Source: Cymbomonas tetramitiformis
Taxonomy: Eukaryota; Chlorophyta; Pyramimonadophyceae; Pyramimonadales; Pyramimonadaceae
Assembly (NCBI GenBank): GCA_001247695.2
Contig: LGRX02027621.1
Location: forward strand, 24,307 to 88,306
Direction of reading: 5' to 3'
Length of the DNA: 64,000 nucleotides
The position numbers were made by a program, and so were the translations under genes. Positions 18,931 to 50,520 of the stretch are shown here, one piece after another. Positions within the stretch are counted from its first letter, which is position 1. Every line of letters begins with the position of its first letter. The notes beneath the pieces are model-generated. The model was given only the letters and a program-made list of their open reading frames with translations, did not search any database and had not been told where the DNA came from.

Positions 18931-19020
18931 TGGGCGATGGTCACGCGATCGGCTCAGGTGACTATCCGTAATGGCTACGAACCGCGCGTGCGTTAATCCA
19001 TTTTGAATTCCACGTCCCGT
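18931..19020. repeat. Diverged duplicate of 16806-16884
   Basis: Covers the end of the intergenic gap and the last codons (antisense) of the giant gene. See partner entry. Confidence 0.55.
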
Positions 19021-23344: not shown

Positions 23345-26300
23345 CTGTCGCGGATGCACGCGGTGCTCAGTGAACAACGGCGTAGGCAGATAGAGTCACG
23401 CGTCGGCAGCACAAAGCGATCACGACGCACCTTCGCCGTACATGTCCCAGACGCGCCCTCGCACGTTGTTGGCGTTGCCCACCCCCGTCTTGGTTTCGAG
23501 GCACATCGCCTCGGACGTGGCCCAGCAGACGCTACATTCCGTCATCCACGCGGGTTCGTACGCGTTTCCGTCGATAACCGGAAGCTCGTCCGTGCGGTAC
23601 ACTTTAAAAACCCCATCCAGATCACGCGTTTCACACATGGACGCTTCCATGGGGCGGTAGAACTTGTTGTCGCCGTCGTCCGGCGCGTGACATTTTAGCT
23701 GCTGATGACACTTGGAGTACCTAGCAAGACGTTTTGAACACCGCGTGAAACCAGATGCGTACGGGCGTGCGTTGTTTTACGGGCAAGAAAACGCGTGTAA
23801 TCGTGGAAATGAGGGGGCGGGGCACCTTTCCGCGGTGTATCGATCCGGATGGTCGGATAAGTCGCGTGGGGTGGGACAGTCGCAGCCCATAATGTCCAAA
23901 AAGTTGTTACCCAGTACGTCCCCCAGTCTAAAATTTGGTAGACGAACCATGCAGTCGCTGAAATGCAGTTTGATCGGCAGCGGTACGCTCACGCCTGCGA
24001 TATGGACATGTTTGATGGACAAACTTTCCGGTATTCGTACGCACTCCCCGCCGAAATTGAATTGCAGTATCGCACATACAACAACGGTGTAATCGTAGGC
24101 GAACGTCTGCAGCATTATGACGGCCTCGCACGTGCCGTTGATGATCGCGTTGATTATTTTGCCCAGGGGCGACTCGAACACAATACGGTACAACACCGTT
24201 TTGAGGACGGCGCCGTACTCCCTCAGGAAAGTCATTATAGCATGGCCCACGTTTTTCCAATCGTCCGCGTTCTCCTGACCGGTCAGCGCGTCTATGACCG
24301 ACTTGAACAGCATGTAAAAAACGTTGATCAGATCGCTCAGCAGCCGCACGACAGCGCTACCAAACATGTTGCACACGTCCTCGATCATGGACACCAGGGC
24401 CATAGTGTCGCGCTGAAACGTGAAGAAATCGTTGTTGCCCTCGGGGTACAGCACCAACACCAGCGCGCGTATGTACTGCATGAACGCGACCAGCACGTCG
24501 CGGCAGTACAGCAGCAGTTGCGACCGGCTGAAAAGGTACGAGGTTAAGAAGGTGCCAAATTGGCTGGTGCCCCCGACGATATTTTGAAACGTCGCGCGCG
24601 CTCCGGCCTCCGCGGTGATCGTGCCATCGGCGACGCCGCGGGCGCTGTCCAGCATGCGCTGTATGTAGTACACGAACGTCTCGTTCGTCGCGATGAGGCT
24701 GCGCTGCACCATCGATCCGTAGGCCACCAGCAGCGTGGCCGTGGCTGCCTCCAACGGGTACGCCTGCATGTGGTGAACGTCGGTGGAGCAGGAGTCGCCG
24801 CTGCCGCCACCGACGCACCCCATCCGCAAAAACAAGGGTGGCACCCCAACGACAAAACCGTCATCGGAGGTGAGCGTGAGCAGATCGAGCTCGCGACCGC
24901 ACCGAGCGCCGCGCAGAAGCTGGCACACGGACACGCAGGAGCCCTCGGGCGCGTAAAGCCAGTACGGAAAATCCGCGCGGTGCTTCAGCAGCACGTTCGC
25001 ACTCTCGCTCGCGTCCTCGCTGTAACCGTTGTCGGTGACGTGCGACCCGTGCGTGGACGTTACGTAATACTCCAGCACGTCGTCGGTGAAACCGCCGAAG
25101 CCGAAATGCGACGCCTGTTCGACGGTCGCGGTGGTGTACGCCCCCGTGGCGTGATCCCGCTGGGTCAGCGCGCCCGTGGCGGCGTCTCCGCGGTAAGCGG
25201 TGAACTCGTCTAACGTTTGCAGCCACGCGCAGTGGCAGTAGCCGTCCCTCTCGCACCCGTGCACGACGTACGTGACGCTATCGCGCGTCCACAAAAACAC
25301 GTGTCCACCGGGCAGCGTGGCGTTCCCAACGCCCTGCTGCACGCATCGCGAGTGCGTCAGCCCGACGCACACGGTTCTGGGAAGCAGGCTGCGCTCCCCG
25401 ACATTCGACGTGGAGTACCACCGCGAGTTTATCCCAAATATTTCGGCGTACGAGTACAGCGAAGGGTCGTAATTGGCTGCGTAATATATCGGGGCGTAGA
25501 GGTACGGCGTGAAAGCGGTCAAGGCGTTGCTGAACGCCACCTGCGCCCACACATTTGCCGGTATAAAAGAACGCCGAGAGCTAAAAAGCAGTCACTTTTG
25601 TGTTGCATCACGGCCCAACAATGTCGAACGCTTTGAAAAAATGTAACTTTGGGCAGTACGGCCTGGCCGTGCTCGACGCCTACGAAGTCTGTATGGAGTA
25701 CACCTGTCGCGAGCTGCATCTGCACCTACGAGGCGGACGACGGCGCTTCCAAAATCTTACAGGTCCGAGCAGCAACACGCTGCACGGGCTGTTGACTCGC
25801 ATGTATCAAGCCAGGCTGCTGACGCGCAGTGTGCGCGTATGCACCGTGACGCGGCGCAGCCTGTACGCGTACCGCTGCGAAAATCCTAGAATGATAACTT
25901 GCTGCATCACGTTGTCTCAGCTGTCCCGACGCAACGCCAACCCGGCTAAGGGGCGTGAAAAGGATCCCCAACGTCTTCGTCCGACGATCCGCTGTCCGCG
26001 TCGTCGTCGTCCGCGTGAGCCTCCCCTTGACTATCCTCTCGCACGTCCAGCCTCACGCGGTGCAGAGACGCCAACGTCGCGCCGGGCATGCAACACCAGC
26101 AATGCCACATTTGCGTCCGTGAGCACGTCAAGTGCCGCAGTTTGACCATACCGGAGATGCCGTGCATCAGCTTGACGGCCACCGTGCACCGCGTACCGAG
26201 CAACACCAGCGTTTGCAACTTGGAATGCGCGCAGATCGCGTCGTGCTCTACGGGCATCTCGTTCACAGCGAGATGCAGGAACTCTAGAGCGGTAGCATCT

Positions 26301-29300
26301 CTTAGGGCAGCGTAATTGATCGGACCGCATGGATATTTAACTGTAAAATGTTTTAGCCGCGGCATGTGCGCGACGAAACCGACATGCGTAATGCCACGCA
26401 CGTACATCAGGCTTAATCGCTCCAGCGCCTTGGCGTGGTTCAAGGCGGTCGCGCGTTCGTCGTCGAGTAGTGCGAGCATGTCGATCGTAAGCACGCGTAG
26501 GTTGCGCAAGCAGGGCAAGGAGCCAAGACTCAGCGCGACGTTCACACGACCCCAGCATTCGAGGTGAAAGTGGCGCAACCCTGTCAGCGCACCGCGCAGC
26601 TGCACGCACGCGTCGCCATCGCTGACGTCCCGGCAGTTGTCCAGGCGCAGATCGGTCAGGGTCGTGTACCCGGCAAAACTTGAAAGGTCGAGGTCGGCGT
26701 ATCCTATCAGCGTCAACCGAGTCAAAGACGTCAGCGTATCGGGTACGCAGCGCGTTCCCCGCGCCTTGCTCCGGCGCGAGAGGTCGCTCTCCAACAGAAG
26801 CGCGCGGAGCTCGGTCAGGTGATCCAGTCGCGCGGGTGCGCATTCACCGCGTTTAGCGCGCACGTCAAGCTCGGTCAGCCGCGGCAAGCCGCGCAGATCC
26901 AGCGCGGACGCGTCGTCAATCACGTACAGGCGCAGGCTCGTCACTGTGCGCGAGTGAACCGCGTTGACCACTTCGATGGGCACGCAGTGTAGCGAAATTC
27001 GACGCAACGACGCGCATCGCCGCAGCTCGTCGCAAAGCGGGCGCAACAGCGTGTAGCTATTCTGCGTGCGCCTACAGCACATGGACAAATCAAAAACGCG
27101 CAGCGAGGAAAGTTTGGGTAGCTGCGGGACGACGTGCGTCTCGAGGTAACGCCAGAACGGTTTCACGTTCAGCTCGCATTGAACACACACCAACCGGCGC
27201 ACGAACTTAGCGCAAAACTCCGGATAGCGCGCCGCGTAACGCACATCCCGTAGCGTTCGTGTCTCATCGAACTCCGGACCGAGTATTGCGCATGACTCCT
27301 CTTCCAATGCGATTTGCGCGTAGATCCTCAAAAACTTCCCAGACAGCTGTTTGCTGATGCACCACCGCTCTTGCGTGCTGTAATCGTAGTCACAAAGGCG
27401 TCGTCGCGGGTTGGAGCGAAAGTGCGTGTCCGGATCGAGCATGACGCAATCGTCCAGACCGATCACGCTGATCGGCAAAAATGATTGTATACGCAGAATA
27501 AAAATTTGGCGTCGGATTGCCTCGGAGGCACGACCGATCCGTGAAACGGCGCGCAGACACAACAAACCCGACGTGCACAGTCGCATCACGATTATGGGTT
27601 CAAAAACCGGCAGGTCGAACAACGTGGGTTGCATGGTTAGTAAATCGTAGGGTGGCAGGGGGGTACGTTCGGGCGCGTTTACGGTCGCGCCAACGATCGA
27701 GCTATATATACGAGCGCGTGCGTTTAGGCATTTTGTGGGCTTCACCGCACCTGAGCCTCAAAGCTTAGCACCACGACGGTGTTCACGATGGCTGTGGGGT
27801 AGAGCATGTCGTCGAAGACTCGCTCGCACTCGCGGTCCTTCTGCGTTTCACCGACGCCGAGGTTAAACAGGTCCGTCATGCAGTTTGCGATATCCACGAC
27901 GTAGTTTATCAGCAGTTGCAGGCTGCTCTGCACCGCCCGCGTTTCGGTGCTGGTGACGCCGATAATCTCCGCGTGCTTCAGCACCGCCTGCTCCATCAAC
28001 TGCGCGTTGGACATTTCAAGCAGCTCCGTCGTGGACGCGGATTTGAAAAGTCGCTTTATGCTGGCCTGTTGCGACCTGAAAAACTCACCCATGCTCGTGC
28101 TTGATACAGGCGTGTTAAGCGCGTACGTTATTGCGCATACGGGGTTTAGGTTCATGCTGGTGTCGATCTCGTACGCGCCCGCCGCGCAGTTGGCGCTGAG
28201 CGGGTTGCACGCAATGGATTCCCCTGTCAGGGGGCTTGGATATTGCGCGTACCTGCGCACCCGAACGCGCAGGTTTCAGGAGTGAAACCTATAACCGCGT
28301 AGCGAAAACGTGCGCGCGATACTCACGTGGAAACGGCGTGCACGATTTTCAATGACTCCTGCATAAGGTTGTTGTGAATATCCGACTTGTCGCACATTAG
28401 CGTGGTCGTTTTGTCCGCGTACGCCTCCACGGCCCCGATCGGTCCGTACATGAACATGTGCACCACCTCGTACAAGCTGTGTGCCGCGGCCATCTGCTCG
28501 TCCAACGCAGGCTCGACCAAGCCCCATAACGTGTCTTTGCTTAGAAGCTTACCCTGCGTAACCTGATTGCCGGTGTAGGCCACACCAATTATCACGGTGC
28601 GCAGCGCGTTGGCGTACATGCGCAACGAGTGCCGAGCGAAATTCGCCGCCCCGGGCAGGTACGCGTCGAAAAAAACGTGCGCGGCGTCGGCGCTCTCTTC
28701 GTGCAGCACGTCGTGCAGAACGTGGTACTCGCCGCCCATGCTGACGCTGATATTCCAAAAGTCGTTCATCCAAGTGCGCGCGATCGTGCGCTGGCTTTGA
28801 CTATCGGAGGCGGTCTCAGCCGCGAGCGTGGCGGAAGCGCTGTCGTCGGTTATGGTAACCACCGCGTGCACGAAAAGCTCATCCTGCGTGGCACCGTCCG
28901 GATCCGAAGCGTGCACCTCCGCGTCCTCCTGCGCCCCTTCCGACTCTGCGCTTCTTGTCATGTACAGCAGCAGATCGCCACCCATGCCGGGAGTTTTGGC
29001 GTCCGCGTATTGCGCGCGCAACGGTACGCGATCCCCTAGAAGCAGATGCGACTCCAGGCACAGCATGTCTGCGTTGTACGTGTACTCCGCCGTATCGCAC
29101 GTCGCGGATCGTCGGCCCTCGGAGCCCACGCTGCATCGTGTGCTGGCAGGTGGCGGCTCCAACGGGGTGGGGGGCGGCGACGGCGGAATCGACGGGGGCG
29201 ACGCGGGCGTGGGTGGCGACGGCCTATCCGGAGGCGCGGGCGGCGGCTGGTACGCGCTGGGAGGCGGGCTCGGAGGAAACGGTGGGAACGCATACGGGGG

Positions 29301-32300
29301 CAACGGGGGCGGGCTGGGTGGGGGTGGAGGCAGCCTAGGTAGCGGCGGAGGCGTCCCGGGCGGACCCGGCGTCGCAGGCGTGTTGGGCGGCGGTGGCACG
29401 GGAGGTTCGGGGGGGTGCGTCCACATGGAAGGCGAATACGGCGGAGGTGCCACCGCGGACGACGACGGCAACGGCGGTGAAGGTGGCGGTGGCGGTGGCG
29501 GTAGCGGTGGCGGTGGGGGTGGGGGTGGCGGTGGCGGTGGCGATGGCGGCGGCGGTGGCGGTGGTGCTGGTGGTGATAGCGCCGGAGGCGGGCTGACGAG
29601 CGCGCCGGGTGGACTGGGTGTCAAGGGGGGATACGGCGGTGGCGGTGGTGGCGGCGGGTATCGTGGTGGCGGAGGTGAAGCAAGTCCCTCGCAGGCGAGA
29701 CTGCACGCGTAAAGCGTGTTGGGATGCGTGTTGTAAAGCTGGCATCCATGCGGTACGCTGTGGTAGGCCAGCAGCTCCTCGTCGCTCGTTTCCACAACGG
29801 TTTCGTCCGACACCGGGTCCGCGCACATGTACGCCTCGTCCGTCGTGATCACGGACGGCCCTCCGAACGCGCGCGTGACGATGTTTGCGCAGCAACGATC
29901 CAAGGAGTCGCCGCAGGCATTCGCCCGATCACTGCTTGCGAACTGCCGCAGCAGCGCACGCGCCGAGATTGGCCTCGCCGAATCGTCCTCGACGCGCGCC
30001 AAAGTGTTGCCCGTAAAGTCGATGGTAAAGTTGGCCCACTCGCTGCCTTCGAGGTCGCCGTGCATGTAGATCGGTATATGCACGCCCGAGTCGTCCAACA
30101 GCACCTCCGAGTCGGTACGCTCCGCCCCGTGCCACTCGTCGCCCGACAGTGGCACAATCAGCGAACGTCCGACGACGTTCTCGCCCACGGAGTACAACGG
30201 GTTTCGGGACGTGCTTTGGTGCATGCGCACCGTGTAGCTCTCCCCGACGAAGAGCCGGAGCTGGACGTGTGCCGCGCCGTCGACCAGGTACGCTAGATGC
30301 GATCGAATTCGATCGTCGGAGGCGTCGACGTTGCTGCAGGTAACGTAAGCCGCCTTCACCTCCATCACCTGACCATCATCTACCGTCCGCGTGTCGTCGC
30401 ACCGAACCGCCAACGGGCGATCGGCGTACGTACCGTCGTTGTACGTCAGCAGACGCCGCGCCCCTGGCGCATCTTCAAAATAAACGTGATGGTAGGCCAA
30501 GGTCGATTCATCGGTCGGGACGCAAGGCTTGCCATCCTCGACGACTCGACAATCCGTCCCCCCACCAGGCAGGTGCGTCGCGCAATGACCTTCGCCGGAC
30601 ACAGTAAACCAAGCGCACCCTTTGGTCGCGTCGCACTTTGCCCGCGTGGTTTCGGTGCAATCGACGTTTGTGTCTGGTTGGCACCGCTGGTGCGTCGTGG
30701 AACCTATCAGGGCGTCGCATCCTAAGAAGCGCTGCATGCAAAGCGAGGCGTCGGAGTCCCATTTGCAGGTGCGAGATCGGCCGCGCGCCTCGCACGTGGC
30801 CTGCGACGTGCTGTGATCGGCGCACACCCCGAAGTCCGGAAAACATTCCACTACCCACCCTTCGTGCACCTGTTGAGTGCACAGAGTACGCCCGTCGTAC
30901 ATGGGTGGCAGCGCCGTGTTCTCGCAGAATTGTGCGGTTTGGCCGACGTTGGTATAAGCGCAGCGACTGTACAGATTGTCGAGCTCCTCCGGTGGTACCT
31001 CCGGTATTGTGCCCCCACCCGTGGCGTCCGCGGCGGTGGTGCGCGGTTTGTAGTGCCCGCAGACCTGTTACGCGTAACGCTCACCCCCCCCCTCCCCCTC
31101 ACCCTTATCGCAACACAGGTTGAAAGCTTCCCCGCAAATAAAACGCCTTCACAGTTACTCTACGCAACTTTGCTCATCCCCGCACGTGTCGTGACATACC
31201 TTATAACCCGTGGAGTAATGCTCCAACGGGTGGTCCACGCCGGTGTCTGTCTGACATACACAGTTTACGTCGCTGTCGTTGTTCTGCACGACGTACACAT
31301 CCGCGTTCGTGCGAGCGACGTCGCCCAGCAATGCCACCGTGTCGTTCGCGTAAAAGCGGTCGCCGAAGTCGCGCACCAGCGTCCAGTACTGCCACCCGAC
31401 TCGATCGTAAACGCGCGACCTGCGCACGAACTGCAGCGGCGAGACGCCGTCATCCCCGAAAGCCTCGGCCAGAGGCCGCGCACCACGGTACCGCGTCTCC
31501 GGATCCCACACGCTCGGCATCATCCAGTCCGCATAATTTGTGCGCTTGTCCGCGAAGGTGGCGTCGCCGAGCACGCATATCAAACGTTTCTGCTGCCCGT
31601 TCGCCGAGTTCGCGTCGCGCGGAACGTACATACCCAGCCACGGCGCCACCTCGCTCTGATACACGTCCCCGGTCTGCAGCGGCCGGTTTATGACGTCCTC
31701 CACCACGCTCATGGAGGTGCAACGGAACGCGCGGTTCGCGTACACGTCCCGCACCTTGCGCATGTGATGCTGACCGTACCGAGTCCGTTCTGCTTCGGAC
31801 ATGCCACGCTGGTTGCGCTCCACGTTAAAAATCACCTGCTCGTCCTCGAATTTGTCCGCGGGCCGTTCGGCGTCCATGCACGCGTCGAAGCACATTTGCA
31901 GGAACGCGTCGTCGTCGTCGCGGGTGCTGCGACTGGAAGAGGCGGCCGCGTCGGTCGACGGGAGAGGAACGTGCAGATTGTAAGCCGTGGCGACGTGCTT
32001 GTTGGTCCCACCGTCGTACCCGTAGAACTGCGTTACCGGTGGGTACTCGCATTCGCCGGGGGGCATGTCGAAAGTCGCGTCGCACGGTTTCCCTTGGTAG
32101 ATGATCATCCTCCAGGTGTTCGGTGGGTGCATGACGTTCACGCTGGGGCGCTCCGTGACCGTCTCACCATCCGGAACCACCGCGTCGGCCGGCTTGAGAG
32201 TGTACGCGTCTGATGCCTCGTCGTACCGCTCCGTCACCGCCGCGAAGCACTCGTGCTCCAGGCGCGTTCCGTCGGCAGCGTGCTGCGCTTCGCTGGTCGA

Positions 32301-38300: not shown

Positions 38301-41300
38301 GTTCATAAAACGTGTCGGTCGGTGTGAAACCGGAGCCGAACACCTCATCCCCCGACGCACGCATGCGAGGCGTCTCGGCCACGCGCGACCACAGCGTCAC
38401 CTCGGGCGGCGGCCACAGGATCTCGATCGGTGCGGCGTTCGACACGCCGTAAGCCGTAGTGCGGGCGTTCGACATACCCAATTGCGTCAGGTCGTTGCTA
38501 TTGATCGTGCGGTAGTAAAACGCGGGATAGTAGTGGCGCCTCCGCAGGTCCATCGCCGTGTGCGTCGCGTACAGATGCCCGGAGTGTCGCGTGTGTACGT
38601 GATCGGCGCTCGAGGCGTTCGCTTTGGCACCGCCCGTGCGGCCCGCCGGGGTGAACCCAGCGTACGGGACCTCTTTAAGATCAAACCGGTCGTCTCTTCG
38701 GGGCGCCCCTGAGCGGGCGGACCGCGCCTTGATGTCGTCGTCGTACTTCCACGCAAAGGGAGGCGCCTTCGTGGTGTGCAGCGCGTCGTACACTCGGCGG
38801 CGATCCACCCCGGTGTTTTTCGCCGCGTACCTGCCGAGAGGCTCCGCCCCTCGCAACCCCCGACCAACTTACGTGTTGGACAACGCGCTCGGATGGCTAA
38901 AACGAAAACGTGCACATGGTGACGTGGCTGAGAATCTCCAACTATCAAATGCAATATGACAAGCTCAAAAATTACCTTTGAGCACCGTACAGTGTGAAAA
39001 TAAAAGCGCGGATGGCCTTTTTGCCGCGCAGGTCCGCCTCATCCTGCACGACGGCGTCGTTCACGAAGGAATTGTCGGTGGGCTGGACGTACAACTCGTC
39101 GGAGGAGGACTTGTGTTGTTTTGCGGTGTCAAATCTGTATGGCGAGTACGTGCCGTGCGGCGACCCCACCGCAGTGCGGTTGAGCACATAACCAAGACCG
39201 TCGCGCGCGGCGGAGTAGCCTCGGTGCGCGTCGCTGTCGCTGTCACCTTTCGCTTGGTAGTACGACCAGGAGGCGTAGCTCGGGTAAAAGCGGTTGGTCT
39301 GCATCTCGTAAAGCTCCTGGCTGCCGCATTTGGTCTTGTCATTGATGCAGGCGTCGAGCGTCGTCTTGTCGTAGGGATGACCGTCGTAAACGTACATGTC
39401 CTGGGAGGCGAAGCCGAGGCAGGGTTGCGCGTAGGTGGCGTCGACTTCGCGCTGTTCTACCACGCGCGGGGTTGAGTAGGTATACAACGTTTCGGAAATT
39501 GACAATGAAAATTCGCATTTTGTAACCTTTTTAAGTGTTCCATCATGACTCCTTGTAGTTGGACATAAATATTTATTTTTGTCGTTATTTGGGCGAAAAT
39601 AATTTTTCGAGTAGTCCGTTGTTTTGGTTGGTATGCCCGAAAATATTTGGCATCGGCATGGTGTAACATCAACGTGGCGCGTGCTTGCAGATGCGTATGC
39701 TTTCCAAGAATACGCCAAACATATAATACGGTAAGCCGTACACGTGGTAGTTTGTCTACATTTGTCTTGGCAAGAATAGCTGTAAGAGCTGGTTGTTATA
39801 TCATGCGTATAATCATACGTGCCCAGAATCGTCCCCTGGTAGAATGTAGCAGAGTCACTGGTAAAGGCTGCATCATGTTTGTCTTTAGTAGGGTTGCCGA
39901 ATGTGGATACTAACACAGGTTCTGTATTGCTATCAAGAAGTTCTTTGCTGTAATCCAGCAAAAACTTTGAACGCGTGATAGGTTGCATAATAGGAGCATC
40001 ATATTTACGATGCTGCCTGGTGAAATCGTCGCACAGCCCGGCCACCAAATCCGAGACGCGCTTGAACGTCTCCTTGTTGTTGAAATCGTCCAGCTCCTCC
40101 ATGTCCACGCCGTAAGCGCGTTTCGCGGACTTGGTGTACTGCTCTGGCATCGTGTTGCTGGTGGTGGTCTTTCGTGCTCGCTCCGTCTTCCCGGGGGTGG
40201 TCACGTCAACAAGGTCGCCGTCCTCGTTGTTGGTCGGTAGCAGCACCAGCACGCGCGCGGGGCCGCGGTTTCCCGGATCCTGCCGCCATCCGGACGACCG
40301 CGCATCGTCGTGGTTGCTCTGCCGCCAAGCGAACGCCGTGTCGTAGCGGAAGCCGCCGTGCGCCCCGTCGTCGTTCCACATATCCACGATCGGCACCACC
40401 TTACGCTCGCCCTGCCTCACGGGCACGGTTTCATCCCACATGTCGTAAAAGGCCGTCATGAATCGCATCTCCGGGGACTCTACGCCTTTGACGTTCGCTG
40501 TTGTTGTGGATTCGAGGCGCGTGGTGTCCACCGAAATGCAATTTCCGTCGGGGAAGGTGTCCTCGCACGTGCATATCGCGCGACCGTCGCCCGTGTTGGT
40601 GCGGCTGGCGAACTGGCTTCGCCAACGCGAGCTTCCGTCGTACGGTGTCTGTTCATCGCACAGGCCGCACGTTCGGTCGCAATTTCTATCGCCGCAGATT
40701 TTGCTCCTAACGGAATTCACCGCCAGCAATAATTCGAGGCACCCTGGCCCCTTGTCTACGCAGCCGTCGCCCGTGGGTGGAAATTTGGAGCTCGCTTGTT
40801 CAGGCAGGTGGCACGCGCTGTCGGCCTTGTATTCCGGGGAACTCTTAAACTCCGCCTGGCATCGGGCGTCGTTCCAGTCGTCACTTACCGCTCGGTTGCA
40901 CACCCCGGTTTTGTCACCCGAGTAACCGTGACTCCATTTCGTGTATATGCTTTCATCGCCGCTCGGCACGGTTCCGAACGCACCCGTGTACGCATCCGGA
41001 AGCTGTATCTGCGGACCGGACACGTAATGCAGATCGAAATCCTCGATGAAGTTTTTCTGGGCGTTCCCTCCGTGCAGAATGTTGTAGTTGCTCTTCACAT
41101 CATCAATATTGCGAGCGTCTTCCATCGCCGATTTCATATTTTTGCACAAATCCGAATAAACATGGTCGCACAGCCACGCGGTCCGGTTACGCAGCGCGGT
41201 GTTGCCGTAGGCCACGGTCGCGGCCAGCGCGTTCGGGCCGGTAAACCCGTACGTGTTGTATGCCGACAGAGGTATCGCCTGCGGACACGCCGGAAAGTCA

Positions 41301-44300
41301 GTTACATCCGTGACCAAATGCGCAACCCATATTCACATGGGGGTGGAACATATGGTACGCCATTGTTGCCAATGATGCGTGTTGGAGCGCACGTTTTGAA
41401 AGTCGTGCGCCTGTTCGCGCATCTCGATGTCGCCGTTGGTCTGGGACGCCACGTAGGCGTTCGCGTCCTCCCGGATACTCACGGACTCGTGCAGATCGTT
41501 CACGGTCAGCAGTTCGCCGCCCGCGGTCACCTGCGGGCGTGTCCACCTTACTCGACAACGACACGCAAAACGCCTCCGCTACGAAACGGTACGATCGGGC
41601 GGGTAGACACCTGGAATCGGGCCACGTTCGTGCTTATCTTATGGTTGGCGGGTGGCGCTTCCGGCGCTGGCGGCGTGGGCGGGTTGTCCAGTTCGATGGA
41701 TGGCTCGAACGCCAGCGTTTCACCAGCGCACGTGTACAGCCATCCGTTCGTGTGACTTTTTTGATCCACCTTCGATTCCTGCCTCTGCGCGACCATGTCG
41801 TCCCTGACGTGCTCGTCGATGGGGTACCACAGCGCGGTGCGATTGCTTGTGCGTGCCAGTTCCTCGGCGACGTAGTCATCGTAACTCTCCCGCATCATGT
41901 CCGGAGCTGGGTAAGTGATCGTATCGCCGTCGGAATCCACCTCGTCGTGGGGCCACGCCGCGTCCAGCCGGCGCAAACGCACGCGCCGCGCCGCGTCCTT
42001 TGGCGTGGCGTGAACGCCGGCCACCATGCCGAGGCGTCGCCCGGTGAGCATCGCGGGCAGCATGCAGGCGTCGTCGTTTTCGTCATCGCCCTGCACGCCG
42101 CAACTGGAAGGCGCGATCACACGGCCGATGTTCGGTGCGCTTGGCCGGCCCTTGGTGTCGCACAGTTTATCGCTGTACGGGAACACCTCGGTGCCGGCGT
42201 TCAGGTTTTGGCACGGGTACGTGGACTCGTTGAGCGCCCGCAGGTACGTTCCGTAGTGCAGGCCACCGTGGCCGCCCGCGAGCACCGTTGTGGCGTCGAA
42301 TCCGGCGTGCGTCGCGCCGAGATGCGAGAGGCTCACCCCGGGCGGGTTGGCTGACTGCAACGCGTCCCGAGTGTGGTAGCCCGATGTGCTGTTGAAGGCG
42401 GATGTTTCGCCCGACAGCACGCCGTCGGCGTCGCGCGTAAACACCGTCTCGCTACTGATGTTGCCGTTCACGTTTGTCATCGCAACCGCGTCGGCCCGCT
42501 GCCACAACGGCTTGGAGTACGCGGGGTCGCTGGCGCGGTGCATCGTCATCCTGGGTCGGTCGTAGACCAGATCGGGCTGCATGCGCTCGGCGAATTCGGA
42601 CTCCGTCTCGCCGTCGACCGGCAGTAGCACGTGAGCGGTGGACGTCACCATCGAAGTATGCATTACGACGGACTCGCATCGCTCGACGGCGTTGGTGCAC
42701 ACAACCACCTGTAGCGCGTGGGTTGCTTTGGATCCCGCCCCGCGGACGCATCGCCCCGCGCGCGCGTCGGAGAGGTGCACCGCCTCACGGTCCTCCGCTA
42801 ATTTCAGGGTGGTGGCGTGCGCGAGCCAGTTGCGCGTGTTTAGCACGTGCTCCTCATCCAGGTAGCCGTCCCGTTGCTCGGCGTCCAGCATATCAGCCTG
42901 CGTCGGTTCGGTTGAAGTCCATGCTCCCAAATCCTTCATCACTTTTAGGAAAGCTATCGCGTTGGATTCGGCGTGGTCTCCACTATCGAAGGGGTGCTTA
43001 ACCTGCTGCGTCACCACCACCATGGCCCGTCCGGTCTCGTCGGCGCCCACGATCGCGTATTCGTTGCCTATGCGCGCGTCGCTGTCGGTTTTGCACGGCA
43101 CCACCTCGAAGGCGCTCGTGTTCGCCATACCGTCGTCGGTGTTGTCGCACGCACCGTAGCGTTGGTCTTTGAAGCCGGCGAAGCCGCGCGGACGTCGAAG
43201 CCCGATCCACACATCCCCGTACACCAGGTTGTAGTCGTTCTGGCCCTTCTGCATCAGTATGCTCGCGGCGAGCTCGGATGATTCTCCGTAGCTGCGGTAT
43301 GGATTCGCTTCACGTCGGTAAACTCCGGCATGGGGATGCGAGTCGGCGTCGCAGGCGTCCGGGCTCAGATCGAGCACGTACGTGGGCGCCGCGAGGTTAT
43401 GCTGCAGCTCGAGCTTCACGCGCACGAAAGCGCCCGGTTCCGTGCAATTGGCGTATCCGCTTTCCCCGACTTGCACCCCACCGGGGAGACTGTTGGACCA
43501 CGAGGGCACCGCGCGCCGAATCTCCGGGGAGGTGGTGCTGTCGCACGCGCTGCTGCTGTACGGCTGTAACACGTGGGCGTCGCAGAGCTGCGCGTGCGCT
43601 TGCACCGCTAAGTTGCGATTGGCGATGGCGTCCCCGGGGGGTGGGGCGAGAATCATGCCCATCGCGGCGCAGCGCGTGCGCGCCTCGTCAAAGGTAACCG
43701 GCTCGGCTTCGATCTGCAGATTGTTGCCCTCCGCATCGGCACAGGCGTACGGCTTCACGTGATCGCAAGGCAGCGCGGACCACTCCCCGAAGACGACGCG
43801 CATACCGATCGCGCAAGTCGCGCTGCGTGCGTCGTCGCCATCATCGCCCTCAAGCAGGGCGCATCGAGACCCCGCGAGCACGTTGAGGGCGACGCAGTCG
43901 TGCACGCTCGCCTCGAACAGGGCGCTCGCCAAATCGGTTGTGTCATCCTGCGACGAGGCAATCGGCTGGCCCTCCCCCCAGTTGCTGTACACGGCGCGCT
44001 TCGATTCGTCGCAATCGCCAACGTCCACGCGTCCGTCCTGCGTGGTCGTGGGCGCACCGACCGTGGCACGCGCTCGCGCGCTGGCATCATGCACGCGAGT
44101 GCACGCCAGACGCACGTCGTTGGCATCCTCGACGGCGACGAAGGCCATGCGTTGGGTGCCGCGTTCGAAAGAGTCACGAACGTTGGGCGAGTCACGGTCA
44201 CGTAGCGGCGCCTGCGCGTCGTCGCCGTGGCCTTGAAATCGTCCGTGCATGCCGACGCCACCATCGGGGTCCACGTCGCCGGAGACCCCGACGTCGGCTC

Positions 44301-47300
44301 GGGCGCCGGTGGTCAGGCGGAAGTCGCCCTCGAACAGGTAGCCTGTCGCGTCGTGCGTGTCGTACGCGCCGGCGCGCAGGGTCTCACGCTCCGGATCGCC
44401 CCCGTAAAGCATGTACACGTGCGACGAGATGGTCTCGTCGCCCGAATTGTTTGTGAACTGTCCTTGCAGGTAACGTTCGGCGTCGTGGCTGGGATTGGCC
44501 GCTCGCGAACTGGTGCGGCTCATCGAAGGGTACTGCGCGCCCACAGACCGAAGCTCCCAGGACGGCATGGCCGGGTGCGGGCCCACTCCTTTGGCCTGAA
44601 GAAAGCGATTGTCGAAGGCGCTGCGTATGCGCAGCTTCCGGCGCGCGGCGCCGAGCAGGCTGGCGTTGCAAAAGTCCGCCACGAGCACCTGCCCCGCACT
44701 GAGCGCGCCCCCGCCGGCGGCGGCGAAGGCGTCGTTCGTTGGCAGGTCGAACTCCGGGTGAGTGCCACCGTACGTCACCGGGTCGGTACGCCTGTCCCCT
44801 AAGGCGTTACCGCGCAGACCGGCGGTGTCGCGCGCGGTGATGCGCAGAACCGCGGTATGGCCGCGACCGCTGATATTCACCGCGGCTCTGGTCCGTCCAA
44901 AGGTGTTTAGCTGCGCGTAAGGCGTAAATTGGTCCGTGCTCCAAGCGGTAGGCATCTCGAGCACCGTACCCAACGTGAATCGCACAGGTCCGCTCGCGGC
45001 TGCCCCGCCGCGGCGTGTCCACGGGTACGGAAACCATCGTTTGCGCGACGCGGCCAAGCGTTCCGCCGCGTTGGGCCTCGCCGCCTCCGGCGGTGCGACA
45101 CCCATAGGAAAGGTGACGCCCTCCAGATTTAAAGCGCATTTCGTGCCAAACTTTTGCAGCTCCTGCAGGGCTTCGCGCGCGGCGTTCAGGTGCGTCCCCG
45201 CAAGGTCGCGCGTGCCGTCGGCGAGATCGCCATCGGATTTCACGCTTTTGCGAACGATGGAGGTCGGTACTTGACGACTGCAGACCGCCACGTACTGCGT
45301 GGTGTCAGTCTGGTCGGCGAGGCCGAAATGTGATTGGAAAAGGCTACTTTTGGGAACGGCCGCGTCCAGTCCATCCAGCACACTGTTGTAACTGAGGTAA
45401 CTGCGATTGTGCCGCGGCTCCGTGCGGTACACTATGGGCACGACACCGGAGTCGAACAGAAATCCGTGCGGCACCGCCGCGCATCCCGACCTGGCTCGAC
45501 TGGCGCGCAGCGCGGCTTCCACCACCGAGACGCCACAAAAAGTCGCCGCCTGGCCCATCTCCTCGGGGTTTAAAAGGTTTGCGTCGATGCACAGCTCGAC
45601 AAGATCCGACGCGGCGTCGGTCGGCGCGCAGTCTGTGATGCCTGGTTTTATGGTGCGCCGCGGCAGCAGCGGTTTGCCGTAGGTGTAACGCGATTTGGGC
45701 ACGTTCGTGTCGGCCACCCGCGCGCTCCGATGCGTCAGATCCACGTACATCCCGCAGTAATCTGTTTCGGCCTCACGCTCGTTCACCACGGGTAGCGCGC
45801 ACTGACGCGGCGTGGCCGAATTGACGGTGACCGCGCCGTAGCGATGGTCGAGCAGCAAGCTCCGTCCCGACATCGACACGTTGATGAACATGCCCACCTT
45901 GGCGTTGTCGTCCGGGCCGGTCGCGTTGAGCACGGCGGTTTTACTGTTAGCCTTAGCGCGCAAGTGCATGCCGTCTCCCGCGGAGAAGGGCAAGCCATCG
46001 GCGTCGCTGCTTAGCGGATCCGCGCACGCTACGGCGGTGCCACCCCCCGTTATCTGATAATATTGGGTGTCGACGCAATGCTGTTTCGGGTCGTAATCTT
46101 TGAAGACGGCGCCGTCGAACAGCGCGCTCAGTCGGGTCGTCTGGACGCCGAGACCGTTCAGCGAATCGCTGCTGACGCAGGCTGTATCGGTGAGACCCTT
46201 GTACGTCACGGTGTTCGGCAGCAGCGCCTGCAGCTCCGCAAGCAAAGCCTCGCGGATGTACGTCTGATCCGAGACCGAGTAGGGTCCCGTGCCGAGCGGT
46301 GCGGCAATACGCTGAAGCGTTCGCGCCGGATTCAACGCCGCGCGTTTTTCTTTCGTCGACGGATCCGCGCCGTGCCTGGCGCGCATCCTCGGCGGTAACT
46401 GCACGCGGTAAACGCGCGCGCAAAGAGGATGCGTGTCCATGATGGGGGAGCCAACACCGGATGAGGTGCGGTCGTTGATGTGCACGTTCAGCGCGGTCTG
46501 CAGCATGCTCCGATACATTTCCGTTTCGCCGGCGACTGGAGCGTGCAGCGACCATCCCGATCCGAGAGTGTCCTTGCAAACGGTTTGCGCCCGGGTTCTC
46601 GTAGGAAACCGCGCGTCGGCATCGTCGAAGTTAAAGGAGTAGGCGTACTCGTACTCGTACTCGCTGCTGGTGACGTCGGTGCTGGCCACGTCCACCGACA
46701 GCGCGTCCGCCGCGTCGTCCACCGCGGTCTGCACCTGGCTCGCGTTCGCGGTGTTGTTGATGGAGGGTCCGCCGTTGGCCGTGGCGCGCAAATCGTCGGC
46801 GTCTCGCGCCCGGCACACGCAGCTTGGACCGTCCACGATCGCGTCGCCCACGCAGGTGGTCGGGCAGTACATCACCTCCGCATCCTTCTGGCCGCTGATC
46901 GTGGATATGGGTTTGCGATCCGTGTCGGCGCACACACACTCGGAGGGGTAGATGTTCTGCGGGTTGTGCTGCATTCGATACCCGCGCAGCACGCTGCCGT
47001 AGGCGTCCCTGCAGACCGTCGCGGAGGTCATCGGCGGGTTGGATGGCGCATCGGGCGGTGGACCTGGCGGTTCCGACATCGGGGGCGGGGAGGCTGGCGC
47101 GCCCACCAGCGTCCTCGGCATGCAGCGACGGACCTTGTGCAAGGGCGTGGGCGACACGAACTCGTGGGGGTCGCACGAACAAAGCGGCTGATGCATCGCG
47201 CCGTACGTGCCACCGATGGTTTCGTACGCCCGCCAGTCCGGCTGGGGCTTTTCGGTGACGTTGTACCCGGCGAACACCTGCTCCGTGTAACGCGCGGTCC

Positions 47301-50300
47301 ATTCCGGGGAGGCGCCGATCAAATCTTTGGGCCGCGCCTGACCTTCCACGACTTCGCGCTCCACGATGCGCACGGGGAACCGCATGACGCGGGCGGGATC
47401 CTCCAATAGGAAGGTGGCGGCTTGGCGGTCTTCGTCCTTCGCGATGTCCGTCACGGCCACAAGCGCACACTCCGCCTGCACGCCGTAGCCGGAGGAAACC
47501 AGACCGTCCGAGTACTGAGCTTCGGTCATGCGACACCGTTCGCGGTGCGGCATGCCGTACGCGTACGTCAGCTCGGCGTCCGTCGTCGCGTCGCCGTCCA
47601 GTATCGCCACCTGCAAGACGCGGCAGACCGGATATCGCACGTCACCCGCGCCCTCCAGGGTCGCGCCGTCCACGTCCGCGAGATAGGATCGCACGCCGCT
47701 ACGCCCCGTGCCGAAGGTGATCGTCCTGGAATCGTACTGCGCGGCCGTTGGGCAGTTATAATAGGTGGGCGTGGCATCCGAAAACGATCCGTCCGAGTCG
47801 CAGGTGCACTGCTCCTGTTCGGTGTCGTCGAAAAGGTAAACGTTTGGGGACGTGCGCAGGTCCGTGGTATCGACGTTGCTCATGTCGCCGTACGCGGGGT
47901 GCCCAGATATCACGCACTCGCCGTCCTCGTATCGGTTGGCGCACTCGTCCGGTGGCAGAAGCGCGCTGTAATCGCCGTACGCGTCCAGGAACGAGCAATT
48001 CACCGTAAGGTCCTGCGGATCGGTTCCATAAGCTGATCTGTGCGCGCCGATCTTGTGCACGGCGTACCCTTCCGCGGCATGCGACTTGATGAATTCTCTG
48101 TAAACAGCGGAGATGCCGACTCCGCAGCCGTACGCGACCCACGCGTCCAAGCCCAGGTGCACGGTCGTTGTGTTGTCCGTATCGCCTGTCGTGCGCACAA
48201 TTGGAATCTTGCACGGGGGCGGCGATGGTGGAGGCGTGGGCGCGGGCGGCGGCGCAGGGTAGGACGGATTCGCCGGTGGCACCTGCGCGACGCCATCCAG
48301 CGCGTCAGGTGACAACGCTTGGGGCGATGCCAATCCAATCGCTCACCGGGGACCGCGACTTGCCTGGTATGCTCCGAATATCAAGGTGGCGGCGTAGCGG
48401 TAGGTGAAACGCATAGCGGCGAACGCCGCGTGGTGGCCCGCGAGGTACAGATTTATAGTTTTGGTGATGTTGAAGGCTTTGGCGTGATCCGTCACCACCA
48501 GCGCGGGCAAGGACATCTGATCGATGACGTAGTTGCGCGCGCAATAGTTGAGCACCTGCGGCGTGAAACGAAACAAAACGCGTGAGGCACGCGTCCCCTG
48601 GCGGCGTACGCATCAACCGAGCACAGCGCGCACCGTGACATCCACGTTTTCCGTGCCGCCGGTGCTGGTCTCCGGGTACACCGAGTCCGAACGCCGGCAC
48701 CCCTGCGTGTTCGGCGTTTCCAGAAGCTGATGCACCAACCCCTCACGGTCGCGCGCGCGGCGAATCTGTGTCGCGTCTTCGGACGCGTCGACGAAAAATT
48801 GCTCCCAGCGATCGCGCAACTCGTACACGATCACAGGCAGGTACGCCAGCAGTCGCGCGCCGATGCGGACTCCGCCGATCACGGCCTGCGCGGAGGCCCT
48901 CACGGCCAGCGCCACCGACGGCGGTGTGGCGACGCAGCGTTTCCGCGTTTTGTCCCAGGAGGGTGGATGCACGGAAAAAAGATTTTCGCAAACGCCGGCA
49001 TCGTCGAGGTCCACGGCGTGCGCCATCGCGTACTGCATGTAGTTGAAACAGCCCATGTACCATCGATCCAAGCTGTCGGCGGTAAACCCCACCGCGTCCG
49101 CCATCAGCGTGATCACACCGTCGAAGTCGAAGGTGCGGTAGTACTCCGCGTAGTCCATGCACAACAACCAGGGCGGATGATGCAGGTACGGTTCCGCGGG
49201 CACGCCGTACGGGTACTCGCCGTCGGACCCGGTGTACCCGTTCCAGCACACGGAGTATTTGCGTTCGCTGCCATCGAAGGTGCCGAACGCGCCGTATCCG
49301 CCTTCGCTGTCGCGCGCGTCCGACGTTAGCTCTCCGGCCATCAGGGCGTCGCCATCGTCACCACCGGCGCTCGCGTCGTCGTTGGCGTCGACGCGCACAC
49401 CCCCCGTCCGCAGGATGTACTGCGCCGGCACCTTGATCATCATGCAGACCGACGCGACGATCGCGTTCAAAGCCAGCGGCGCGTGATAGTTGTACGGCAG
49501 ACAGTCGGATCGCACGTCCGAGTCGAAGTCGCACACCCGGCAGTACCGCACGTTCGCCTCGTACGCGTCGACCACCATCGTCGGATCGTAGAGTTTTTGG
49601 CGGTAGCAGAACTTGTTAAACGTCGGCGTTTCGGCGGCGGCGTGGGCGGAGGGCGCGTAGTAGTCCGCCAGCTGCACCGGCGAGTGGGCGGCGGGGGGGT
49701 AGTAGTCCAACGGGGAACCCAGCGTTTCCCATAATAGGCGCGCGAAGCCGCACGGCACGATCACGGATTCGCGCACGGCCCACATGCCGCGTTGCAGCGC
49801 GAGGCAGGAGTGCAGAAAGTCCGGCGACGCGTCCACGAAGTGTTGTTTGACGACCCAGTCGTAGATCTCTTGGCCGAGGTGCGACAGGAACGCCGACCAC
49901 GCGAAGACGAGCTCCAACAGCACGTCCGCCGTCAGACGCAGAACCGTGTCCCGCAGAATTGAAAACGCGCGCTTGCCCGCCAGTACCACGACGTTGAACG
50001 CTCCCGCAAACGCGGAATACAGGGTGGCCAAAAATCGCAGGTACATCTTCAACGGATAGAAGATGGGTCGGTGCAGCTCATCGTACGCGACGTTCGTTTT
50101 ACTCACGAGCGTGTGCCCCTCGAACGCCAGCACGAACGCCGCGACGGTCACAAGCATGGCTATCAGCAGAAAGTACCGATAGGTGACCATCGCGTTGACG
50201 CACGCGGCGACCAAGTCGGAGGCGTACTTTAACGCATTGCTCAAGCCGTTCATGACGTACATCGTCAGGTTGATAAAGTGCTGCCGCAGATGGTCCTGGT

Positions 50301-50463
50301 TGAAATCTTGAAACAGGACGTCCCGTTTTACGGTGCGATTTACGTCGGTCGCGATGTCCACCTGTACGATGGTGGCAAACAGGTAGAGTCCGAACGACCA
50401 TAGCGATCCGAGCGTAAAGCCGGTGGTGAGTGTTAAGAAGTACCATGCGTACGCGTTGCTCAT
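18993..50463 (-). CDS. Giant split gene: about 9,421-residue cysteine/proline-rich membrane glycoprotein
   Basis: I read nine-plus long minus-strand frames as exons of one gene, 12 exons: 50463-48634, 48555-48364, 48282-41611, 41530-41393, 41278-38976, 38830-37345, 37247-31200, 31064-28327, 28252-27751, 25540-23826, 23720-23431, 23344-18993. Coding total 28,266 bases. Each junction has GT (once GC) and CAG or TAG borders and all phases agree. The protein begins with several membrane segments, continues as a huge ectodomain with hundreds of cysteines, N-x-S/T sites, proline tracts, PAN-like and C-type-lectin-like modules, has a second membrane-rich region at residues 7,300-7,880 and a C-terminal membrane anchor. 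Repeated (A/S)RRL(L) dibasic sites suggest proteolytic maturation. Probable role: virion surface or host-attachment glycoprotein, by inference. Alternative: two genes (50463-27742 and 25540-18993), but the latter has no start codon. Confidence 0.6.
23431..23720 (-). CDS. Giant gene exon 11 (residues 7875-7971)
   Basis: Acceptor TTGCTAG ends at 23721; the exon encodes YSKCHQQLKCH and further cysteine-rich sequence (CSVCWATSEAMC) and ends GAAG before GTGCGT (23430), phase 1. An ATG-based call would miss the first 70 bases. Confidence 0.6.
23826..25540 (-). CDS. Giant gene exon 10, membrane-rich (residues 7304-7875)
   Basis: No in-frame ATG for the first 270 codons; the frame opens at GTG 25552 four codons before a splice acceptor. 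Cysteine-rich ectodomain first, then a long hydrophobic helical region (LLLYCRDVLVAFMQYIRALV, VVRLLSDLINVFYMLFKSVI) resembling the exon 1 membrane region. Ends GAAAG before GTGCCC (23825), phase 2. Confidence 0.6.
25562..25568 (+). promoter_or_regulatory. TATA box upstream of 25621 gene
   Basis: TATAAAA about 55 bases before ATG 25621. On the plus strand only; it does not serve the minus-strand exon at 25540. Confidence 0.5.
25621..26145 (+). CDS. Small gene nested in the giant-gene intron
   Basis: ATG 25621 after a TATA box. The first 110 residues look natural (MSNALKKCNFGQYGLAVLDA, six cysteines); the last 60 codons are arginine/proline-rich and antisense to the 3' end of the F-box/LRR gene, so the true end may be earlier or the overlap may be real. 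No domain recognised. Convergent with the 25946-27634 gene. Confidence 0.45.
   Translation: MSNALKKCNFGQYGLAVLDAYEVCMEYTCRELHLHLRGGRRRFQNLTGPSSNTLHGLLTRMYQARLLTRSVRVCTVTRRSLYAYRCENPRMITCCITLSQLSRRNANPAKGREKDPQRLRPTIRCPRRRRPREPPLDYPLARPASRGAETPTSRRACNTSNATFASVSTSSAAV
25946..27634 (-). CDS. F-box-like leucine-rich-repeat protein
   Basis: 562 residues from ATG 27634; the frame extends to 27745 but the TATA box (27701-27710) lies inside that extension. N-terminal F-box-like region (LPVFEPIIVMRLCTSGLLCL), then from residue about 160 many LRRs (LPKLSSLRVFDLSMC, LPRLTELDVRA, LTSLTRLTLIGYADLDLSSF, TTLTDLRLDNC and others). Acidic serine-rich tail (DDDDADSGSSDEDVGD). F-box/LRR proteins recruit substrates to SKP1-Cullin ligases. 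It lies wholly inside a predicted intron of the giant gene on the same strand. Confidence 0.75.
   Translation of the reverse strand: MQPTLFDLPVFEPIIVMRLCTSGLLCLRAVSRIGRASEAIRRQIFILRIQSFLPISVIGLDDCVMLDPDTHFRSNPRRRLCDYDYSTQERWCISKQLSGKFLRIYAQIALEEESCAILGPEFDETRTLRDVRYAARYPEFCAKFVRRLVCVQCELNVKPFWRYLETHVVPQLPKLSSLRVFDLSMCCRRTQNSYTLLRPLCDELRRCASLRRISLHCVPIEVVNAVHSRTVTSLRLYVIDDASALDLRGLPRLTELDVRAKRGECAPARLDHLTELRALLLESDLSRRSKARGTRCVPDTLTSLTRLTLIGYADLDLSSFAGYTTLTDLRLDNCRDVSDGDACVQLRGALTGLRHFHLECWGRVNVALSLGSLPCLRNLRVLTIDMLALLDDERATALNHAKALERLSLMYVRGITHVGFVAHMPRLKHFTVKYPCGPINYAALRDATALEFLHLAVNEMPVEHDAICAHSKLQTLVLLGTRCTVAVKLMHGISGMVKLRHLTCSRTQMWHCWCCMPGATLASLHRVRLDVREDSQGEAHADDDDADSGSSDEDVGDPFHAP
27701..27710 (-). 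promoter_or_regulatory. TATA element of the F-box/LRR gene
   Basis: Alternating TATATATAGC, about 67 bases before ATG 27634. Sits just beyond the TGA that follows exon 9 of the giant gene. Confidence 0.45.
27751..28252 (-). CDS. Giant gene exon 9 (residues 7136-7303)
   Basis: After a TGCGCAG acceptor (ends 28253). Mostly helical with two cysteine pairs. The frame reaches a TGA at 27742-27744, which would be the end if this were a separate gene; but GCTCAG then GTGCGG at 27750 is a donor of the same type as the others, phase 0, matching exon 10. Confidence 0.6.
28327..31064 (-). CDS. Giant gene exon 8 with long proline tract (residues 6224-7136)
   Basis: The frame upstream of the first ATG (30902) is open to an acceptor CGTAACAG ending 31065, giving cysteine-containing in-frame sequence starting VCGHYKP, so the exon is longer than an ATG-based call. 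About 190 codons at 29140-29700 are a P-rich tract with SPPPP units, like algal hydroxyproline-rich wall proteins. Dibasic GARRLL is encoded near 30455. Ends phase 2 before GTGAGT (28326). Confidence 0.65.
31200..37247 (-). CDS. Giant gene exon 7 (residues 4208-6223)
   Basis: 6,048 bases after a CTTGCGCAG acceptor (ends 37248). Starts with TRTYPAPSPPPVPP. PAN-like cysteine groups CLGRCRDDASC (about 36820-36860) and CENGCKQNLIC (about 36150-36200). The stretch 35850-36420 is AT-rich relative to flanks. Many N-x-S/T sites; another proline patch (APPPPPPSDLY) near 33590-33610. Ends at TATAAG before a GTATGT donor at 31199; reading through would stop at 31155. Confidence 0.7.
37345..38830 (-). 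CDS. Giant gene exon 6 (residues 3712-4207)
   Basis: 495 codons, phase 2 at the start and 0 at the end (EQ, then GTGCGC donor at 37344). Includes a proline patch (APPPMPPFPNGPP) and a PAN-like cysteine motif (CRTRCDDTVWC) around 37600-37650. Ectodomain. Confidence 0.65.
38831..38975 (-). other. Predicted intron, possibly holding a 24-base microexon
   Basis: Read as one 145-base intron (GTAATT...CGGCAG), phase 2 fits. A 24-base microexon at 38896-38873, flanked by TTTTAG and GTAAGT, is also phase-consistent and would add 8 residues; the sequence cannot decide. Confidence 0.5.
38976..41278 (-). CDS. Giant gene exon 5 (residues 2945-3712)
   Basis: Acceptor CGTGTCCGCAG (ends 41279) with GTAACTGAC as branch-like site. 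Cysteine-rich; contains a PAN/apple-like pattern (CQDKCRQTTTC, then C.AY.) near 39690-39790. The part encoded by about 39475-40020 is distinctly AT-richer than its surroundings. Ends phase 2 before a GTAATT donor at 38975. Confidence 0.65.
41393..41530 (-). CDS. Giant gene exon 4 (residues 2899-2944)
   Basis: 46 codons after a CCCGCAG acceptor (ends 41531). The peptide is clearly protein-like (LLTVNDLHESVSIREDANAY). The 3' border used here is AAC then GTGCGC (donor at 41392), phase 0, matching exon 5; another donor-like site 58 bases later (GTGAAT) gives phase 2 and does not fit. Confidence 0.5.
41611..48282 (-). CDS. Giant gene exon 3 (residues 675-2898)
   Basis: A 6,672-base exon. Begins with a proline-rich leader (YPAPPPAPTPPPSPPPC), then a cysteine-rich ectodomain. 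A C-type-lectin-like module is encoded around 43735-43990: NWGEGQP, then DCVALN, then GEWSALPC and PYAC, matching the usual W/GQP/DCV/W..xC/xYxC order. A second proline patch (SPPPMSEPPGPPPDAPSNPP) is near 47040-47100. The exon ends TTCCAG before a GTGTCT donor at 41610; the frame runs on to a stop at 41548. Confidence 0.7.
48283..48363 (-). other. Predicted GC-AG intron (81 bases)
   Basis: Starts GCAAGT after TACCAG and ends GTCGCGCAG; contains CACCTGACGC, a good branch-site-like motif 30 bases before the end. A GTGAGC lies inside it, but using that donor gives the wrong phase. Confidence 0.5.
48364..48555 (-). CDS. Giant gene exon 2 (residues 611-674)
   Basis: 64 codons between a GCCGCAG acceptor (ends 48556) and a donor reading CAG then GCAAGT (48363). 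Contains NITK (glycosylation site) and a hydrophobic stretch AATLIFGAYQ. No ATG is needed because it is internal; phase 0 on both sides. Confidence 0.6.
48634..50463 (-). CDS. Giant gene exon 1 (residues 1-610)
   Basis: ATG 50463 was chosen because a TATATATA element lies at 50507-50520 and the protein then starts at once with a membrane segment (WYFLTLTTGFTLGSLWSFGL). Further membrane-like stretches: FLLIAMLVTVAAFVLAF, FLATLYSAFAGAFNVVVLAG and ALNAIVASVCMMI. Cysteine-bearing loops lie between them. Ends before a GTGCGC donor at 48633; reading on would give a stop at 48613. Confidence 0.7.
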
Positions 50464-50506: not shown

Positions 50507-50520
50507 TGTATATATACACA
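50507..50520. promoter_or_regulatory. Palindromic TATA element between divergent genes
   Basis: TGTATATATACACA is nearly symmetrical and lies 44 bases before the giant gene's ATG (50463). It probably drives the giant gene; the gene at 50666 in the other direction may have its own signal (GGTATAG near 50598 or GATAAAAG at 50649). Confidence 0.5.

Follow-up and report, generated by a model that had tools for sequence, protein, structure and literature searches.

A twelve-exon split gene and its predicted 9,421-residue protein in a contig of the green alga Cymbomonas tetramitiformis

Do twelve reading frames strung along 31 kb of one DNA strand belong to one gene, and if so, is that gene the alga's own or a virus's? 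The question is raised by a stretch of 64 kb (the window) in the 88,306-base contig LGRX02027621.1 of Cymbomonas tetramitiformis, in which an original prediction, made from the letters alone, proposed one split gene for one giant protein. Judged as a sequence feature, this giant gene proved to be both real and large. It runs on the minus strand from an ATG at 50463 to a TAA at 18993 and consists of 12 exons and 11 introns. The joined coding sequence (CDS) is 28,266 nt long, or 9,421 residues, with zero internal stops. The twelve minus-strand frames, the GT-AG borders (n = 10) with one GC-AG border (intron 2) and the phases of 0,0,0,0,2,0,0,2,0,2,1 for introns 1 to 11 were all reproduced; the prediction had given the phases and the overall ends, and the intron coordinates were fixed in this analysis. 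The acceptors are CAG in 10 of 11 introns and TAG in one, again as proposed. Ten introns measure 74 to 145 nt and intron 9 measures 2,210 nt. With canonical borders and a frame kept over every junction, the gene has the form of a spliceosomal gene.

The exon chain and its junctions

That all junctions are in phase had been taken as unlikely by chance, and this argument proved weak. Enumerating, within the script's limits, nearby GT or GC donors combined with AG acceptors that leave the reading frame open gave 27, 35, 90, 7, 55, 57, 51, 40, 30, 35 and 56 pairs at junctions 1 to 11 (J1 to J11). Because an in-phase, stop-free chain is so easily found, phase agreement alone was rejected as strong evidence.

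The junctions were then judged by comparison with relatives, a check that had been named with the prediction. Protein searches with exon 12, exon 3 and exons 10-11, in which 7,999, 7,999 and 7,995 candidates were scored, gave at least ten relatives among the matches listed (P0001 to P0010: seven labelled Cymbomonas, two EukProt, one without name). Against the highest-scoring relative, the adopted splice pair outscores all others at 10 of the 11 junctions and shares the top score at J11 (P0009). With up to three relatives per junction and the J11 tie scored as first, 26 of the 28 junction-relative tests put it in first place; with P0004 and P0005 at J1 it is second. In a junction alignment made at a score threshold of 60, 27 of 33 relative-junction rows are ungapped within five residues, and every junction has at least one such row. 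The J2 row for P0008 probably reflects a fortuitous match of prolines, and junctions 5 and 6 are supported by one relative each. P0003 spans exons 1-3, P0004 and P0005 exons 1-5, P0007 exons 3-8, P0010 exons 7-12, and P0009 and P0008 exons 8-12. P0003 and P0007 adjoin inside exon 3 without overlap, and no one relative spans all 12 exons. Relatives other than the gene's own public model cover 26,187 of the 28,266 coding bases. It was concluded that the chain of 12 exons stands, because relatives run through all 11 junctions.

One relative deserves separate mention. P0008 is 2,518 amino acids (aa) long and needs 7,554 bases of a contig of 8,267. Since at most ~710 nt remain for introns and ends, the P0008 copy probably consists of a single unbroken frame, derived either from a transcript or from a gene poor in introns. 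The public hypothetical-protein model of the giant-gene locus, CYMTET_41522 (P0001), begins inside intron 9 and uses another donor for intron 10, unlike the adopted donor, which is backed by three of three relatives. The features are as follows, with ranks giving the place of the adopted pair among the in-phase open pairs.

50507..50516, minus strand: TATATATA box, TATA-like, upstream of the ATG
48634..50463, minus strand: exon 1, with the ATG; hydrophobic segments start near residues 84, 98, 144, 328 and 528; P0003 to P0006 align here
48556..48633, minus strand: intron 1, GTGCGC...CAG, phase 0; rank 1 of 27 with P0003, rank 2 with P0004 and P0005
48364..48555, minus strand: exon 2
48283..48363, minus strand: intron 2, GC-AG, phase 0; rank 1 of 35 with three relatives
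41611..48282, minus strand: exon 3, 6,672 nt; proline-rich spacers; lectin-like motif by eye at ~43.7-44.3 kb, without profile support
41531..41610, minus strand: intron 3, phase 0; rank 1 of 90
41393..41530, minus strand: exon 4
41279..41392, minus strand: intron 4, phase 0; rank 1 of 7
38976..41278, minus strand: exon 5
38831..38975, minus strand: intron 5, phase 2; rank 1 of 55, single relative
37345..38830, minus strand: exon 6
37248..37344, minus strand: intron 6, phase 0; rank 1 of 57, single relative
31200..37247, minus strand: exon 7, 6,048 nt
31065..31199, minus strand: intron 7, phase 0; rank 1 of 51
28327..31064, minus strand: exon 8, with the longest proline-rich tract (proline 14.8%)
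28253..28326, minus strand: intron 8, phase 2; rank 1 of 40
27751..28252, minus strand: exon 9
25541..27750, minus strand: intron 9, 2,210 nt, phase 0; rank 1 of 30; skipped by P0008, P0009 and P0010
23826..25540, minus strand: exon 10; hydrophobic segment near residue 7777
23721..23825, minus strand: intron 10, GT-TAG, phase 2; rank 1 of 35 with three relatives; the CYMTET_41522 donor differs
23431..23720, minus strand: exon 11
23345..23430, minus strand: intron 11, phase 1; tied first of 56 with P0009, alone first with P0010 and P0008; also in P0001
18993..23344, minus strand: exon 12, with a C-terminal transmembrane segment near residue 9360 and the TAA

The TATATATA box lies 51-53 nt upstream of the ATG. 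Further TATA-like sites on the minus strand within the gene are one at 48457 (exon 2) and those at 27708/27710, which belong to an open reading frame (ORF) nested in intron 9. A TGTAA is located 123 nt past the stop. The whole window carries no tRNA genes and no Rfam family at the gathering threshold.

The length of the product is less firm at two places, and intron 9 holds a frame of its own:

39401..40045, minus strand: stop-free low-GC stretch in exon 5, 645 nt, GC 0.447, begins GT and ends CAG
35694..36629, minus strand: stop-free lower-GC stretch in exon 7, 936 nt, GC 0.494, begins GT and ends CAG
25946..27634, minus strand: leucine-rich-repeat ORF nested in intron 9, intronless, 562 aa, with its own TATATATA box

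Both in-exon stretches are multiples of three. P0005 and P0007 lack the exon 5 stretch, and P0004 lacks its core; the exon 7 stretch is missing from the model of P0007. The two stretches may be inserted or acquired domains that gene finders dropped, or facultative in-frame introns. Because the two GT...CAG stretches are absent, wholly or in core, from models of relatives, the product may be 8,894 residues and not 9,421, if both are removed by splicing.

The nested ORF starts at an ATG at 27634. Its best leucine-rich-repeat Pfam match has an E-value (E) of 2.4e-5, under the curated cut-off, and giant-family relatives cover 0 of its bases. P0008, P0009 and P0010 go from 27745 to 25546 and so bypass it. 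The frame 25949-27757 was rejected as a part of the giant protein, as three of three relatives that span intron 9 skip it. The phase list of the original prediction already implied that this frame lies outside the chain. By these alignments the nested ORF is read as separate and not as a part of the giant protein.

The predicted protein and its family

By hydropathy, exon 1 holds five hydrophobic segments, and further segments lie near residues 7777 (weak), 9180 and 9360 (strong). This agrees with the predicted membrane segments at both ends and in the middle, the middle one being the weaker. The protein was also said to be cysteine- and proline-rich; it has proline tracts (up to 14.8% in exon 8) and 2.8% cysteine overall. 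Hydropathy, proline tracts and N-glycosylation motifs are consistent with a secreted, membrane-anchored protein. The N-terminal membrane block was also compared with the region of exons 9-10, and a similarity was not supported (hhalign probability 1.7).

Domain searches gave little. Pfam scans of the eight large exon frames (cut-off E<=0.01 in two, E<=0.1 in six) and of seven of the ten relatives (E<=0.1; P0001, P0002 and P0006 were outside the scan) matched no family; the small exons 2, 4, 9 and 11 were outside the stand-alone scans. The pherophorin domain was likewise without a match in the same eight frames and seven relatives. For the segment 43717-44277, where a C-type lectin might lie, neither Pfam (E<=5) nor the PDB (E<=10) gave a match. 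PAN-like cysteine spacing was seen by eye in both in-exon stretches, and the segments 39392-40069 and 35991-37055 have no Pfam match at E<=5. A PDB search with an alignment of exon 1 and full-length relatives gave botrocetin, a C-type lectin (E 0.64), and a bromodomain (E 0.99), both of them outside exon 1, in profile columns that the relatives supply. A PDB sequence search with the C-terminal alignment gave no match. Since profile and structure-database searches gave no support and botrocetin is the sole hint, the PAN-like and C-type-lectin-like modules of the prediction are best described, from sequence comparison, as a motif-level resemblance only.

The family itself is clearer. Exon 12 (query 18996-23330) is 100% identical to CYMTET_41522, which exons 10-12 also match. 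Cymbomonas proteins CYMTET_8296 (P0003), CYMTET_41439 (P0007), CYMTET_44508, CYMTET_6689 (P0004), CYMTET_35663 (P0009) and CYMTET_3694 (P0010) belong to the same family, with ~27-74% identity per aligned piece. Together they cover all 12 exons. They and CYMTET_41522 are annotated as separate hypothetical proteins of 1,263-3,889 aa, none of them full length. The public models compared fragment these genes, and the family is therefore hidden. P0002 is 58% identical to the gene in the window, and P0009 and P0010 are 49% identical to each other. Because four different Cymbomonas proteins (P0001, P0002, P0009 and P0010) cover exon 12, the genome holds at least four diverged family genes. P0002 may go together with P0003 and P0007, and one of the remaining genes may have P0004 as its front half.

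P0005 and P0006 are EukProt proteins of another eukaryote. They are 80-88% identical to each other over aligned pieces (71% in one piece), and either is 57-61% identical to P0004 (56% in one piece). The two EukProt models, gene144-260_t and gene588-989_t, are 33-34% identical to exon 3 and have the same N-terminal membrane block; unlike the giant gene, they stop in exon 5. One piece of gene588-989_t is out of order and the model is probably faulty. A search of a phage collection with exon 1 gave no lead, and bacterial and archaeal genomes searched with the C-terminal alignment gave no confirmed relative. No description of the protein family was found in a literature search on limited terms (titles and starts of abstracts). 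In the searches made, the protein matched no described family.

Cellular or viral origin

We consider it rather probable that the giant gene is cellular, and just on the probable side that it is a nuclear gene of Cymbomonas tetramitiformis for an algal cell-surface or secretory giant protein, possible scaffold roles included. Such a gene would give one very long transcript, spliced by the ordinary spliceosome. The product would enter the secretory pathway, and the N-terminal hydrophobic block and the C-terminal helix would hold it in a membrane. A long chain of cysteine-containing modules on proline-rich spacers would then be displayed on vesicles, scales or the cell surface. It could serve as a binding or adhesion scaffold in prey capture, cell-cell contact or coat assembly, and the divergence among copies in one genome would fit diversified binding parts.

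Green-algal sexual agglutinins, the flagellar membrane glycoprotein and pherophorins are long secreted or membrane-anchored chains with proline-rich spacers. The giant protein shares this chain type by description, is longer than such proteins are known to be and, with respect to pherophorins, lacks the Pfam match as noted above. In length it falls in the class of huge proteins above 5,000 aa, which has more than 41,000 members in UniProtKB outside the viruses (PMC11573180).

Base composition favours host DNA. The guanine-plus-cytosine (GC) content is 0.618 in the gene region, 0.485 in the left flank and 0.494 in the right flank, with introns at 0.52-0.67. GC at third codon positions is 0.775 in the giant gene and 0.35-0.70 in 14 other ORFs, the nested ORF included. 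PMC10675990 puts host flanks of Cymbomonas viral fragments on average 10.4 GC points higher than the fragments, and the assembly (914 Mb) at 51.4% GC.

A number of observations weigh against an algal gene spliced in this way. The flank GC is uneven, 0.39-0.56 in 2-kb steps. Cymbomonas core genes have 7.40 introns per 1,127.7-bp gene (~6.6/kb) and a mean intron of 297 bp (these are core-gene means only). The giant gene has 0.39 introns per kb of CDS, ~17 times fewer, and ten of its introns are 74-145 nt long, so that in intron density and length it is unlike a typical core gene. The flanks carry KilA-N and MerR/MSV199-type genes and long intronless ORFs. No domain of known function was recognised in the protein. 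Gene models made by computation account for most of the relatives and may have errors in common; the 2015 Cymbomonas annotation was made with MAKER, drawing on transcript evidence, SNAP and AUGUSTUS (PMC5741210). CTNAY occurs in the last 60 nt of three of 11 introns. It is a simple branch-point motif, and this count neither supports nor rules out splicing.

A viral origin survives best among the rivals, and we hold it as a tentative, clearly less probable alternative to the cellular gene. An endogenized large DNA virus, related to mirusviruses or nucleocytoviruses, would have brought the gene for a giant surface protein of the virion or the infected cell. Low intron density and short introns keep this origin alive. 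Both flanks are partly virus-like (KilA-N, MerR/MSV199, weak F-box and ankyrin matches) and have one repeat element in common. According to PMC12768974, mirusvirus introns peak at ~80 bp, occur at 0.025-0.65 per kb depending on the group and are 14-fold denser in virion genes. The few, ~80-nt, GT-AG introns of the giant gene resemble this pattern, though the likeness is non-specific and the per-kb basis may differ. As described in PMC10675990, the Cymbomonas genome carries one Algavirales genome along with numerous polinton-like viruses and mirusvirus-like elements with heliorhodopsin, and most of its viral elements were silent.

Against the virus, the gene and its introns are richer in GC than the flanks, and Pfam scans of 17 of the 21 flanking frames of at least 200 aa gave no match to any capsid, HK97-type included, or to portal, polymerase, terminase or heliorhodopsin, and no nucleocytovirus marker gene, although the window takes in 64 kb of the contig and Pfam may cover viral marker genes poorly. 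The labels of the relatives (seven of ten Cymbomonas, two of ten EukProt) point to eukaryotes and are compatible with endogenous viruses. IMG/VR scans with pieces of the giant gene found no relative, and records from the alga's own genome may be left out there. The absence is weak, because scans with two flanking genes and the nested ORF likewise matched nothing. A viral origin, which the original prediction had raised as an option, was not demonstrated: the sequence lies in a Cymbomonas genome and has no IMG/VR relative, although its flanks are virus-like.

A more specific form of the viral origin is doubtful: the family may be a surface protein of an undescribed, nuclear-replicating, mirusvirus-like large DNA virus that repeatedly entered prasinophyte genomes, with a spliced chain of ~9,400 residues and a gene nested in its longest intron. 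If viral, such a chain would be the largest protein from any DNA virus known to us. The protein would then rank among the largest virus proteins, as had been claimed, and would be an extreme case of spliceosome-dependent virus genes. It would not be the largest virus-encoded protein, because the planarian nidovirus polyprotein has 13,556 aa (PMC6211748); that is likewise a giant single product, but a longer one and the polyprotein of an RNA virus.

Processing of the product is a separate matter and is compatible with the cellular surface protein that we prefer. The chain might be a polyprotein precursor cut at basic sites into several surface chains, which we regard as unlikely. Near residues 6426, 8247 and 8627 the chain has basic motifs, ARRLL and SRRLT among them, and P0007 and P0010 have similar sites at about the same positions. 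The sites are only partly conserved, and the strict pattern occurs in neither P0008 nor P0009. RRL-type sites would thus allow processing into several chains without demonstrating it.

That several adjacent genes with their own starts were wrongly chained is very improbable: the partial models of all relatives, the start of CYMTET_41522 inside intron 9, the abundance of chance in-phase pairs and the TATA-like site in exon 2 would fit it, but relatives cross every junction ungapped (27 of 33 rows), P0004 and P0005 link exons 1-5, P0007 links 3-8 and P0010 links 7-12, and besides exon 2 and the nested ORF the gene has no TATA-like site on the minus strand.

The genome of bacteria-eating Cymbomonas, an organism used for studies of how phagotrophy and photosynthesis coexist, holds at least four diverged genes for predicted giant membrane proteins. 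If the family belongs to the cell, it offers a concrete candidate for a role in prey contact, in the coat or in sexual recognition.

DNA flanking the gene

The right flank carries a KilA-N gene (E 1.6e-9) and weakly matched MSV199/MerR-type genes that have integrase/resolvase and antirepressor matches in cyanobacterial phages. In the left flank, F-box (E 0.013) and ankyrin (E 0.014) are matched weakly. Long intronless ORFs are also present in the flanks. The KilA-N protein at 60569-61969 (plus strand) has a long charged repeat region encoded by 33/66-nt tandem repeats. A MerR-type gene start is duplicated at 59864-60163 and 62775-63074 (90% identity) with different tails, one of which includes an MSV199-like part that matches cyanobacterial phage genes.

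Several repeats were also mapped. A ~60-nt element with a CGCCC/GGGCG inverted repeat is found at 9978-10040 and 14627-14686 on the left and, inverted, at 57185-57247 on the right. The copies at 9978-10040 and 57185-57247 are 89% identical and link both flanks to one kind of element. In the left flank, a direct repeat of 280 nt (9663-9942 and 13729-14008) is 100% identical over copies 4.1 kb apart, and a further pair at 8617 and 12808 is 91% identical. Arrays of the 7-base unit TTTCTGG, telomere- or satellite-like, occupy 14321-14626 (~44 copies) and 15141-15244 (~14 copies).

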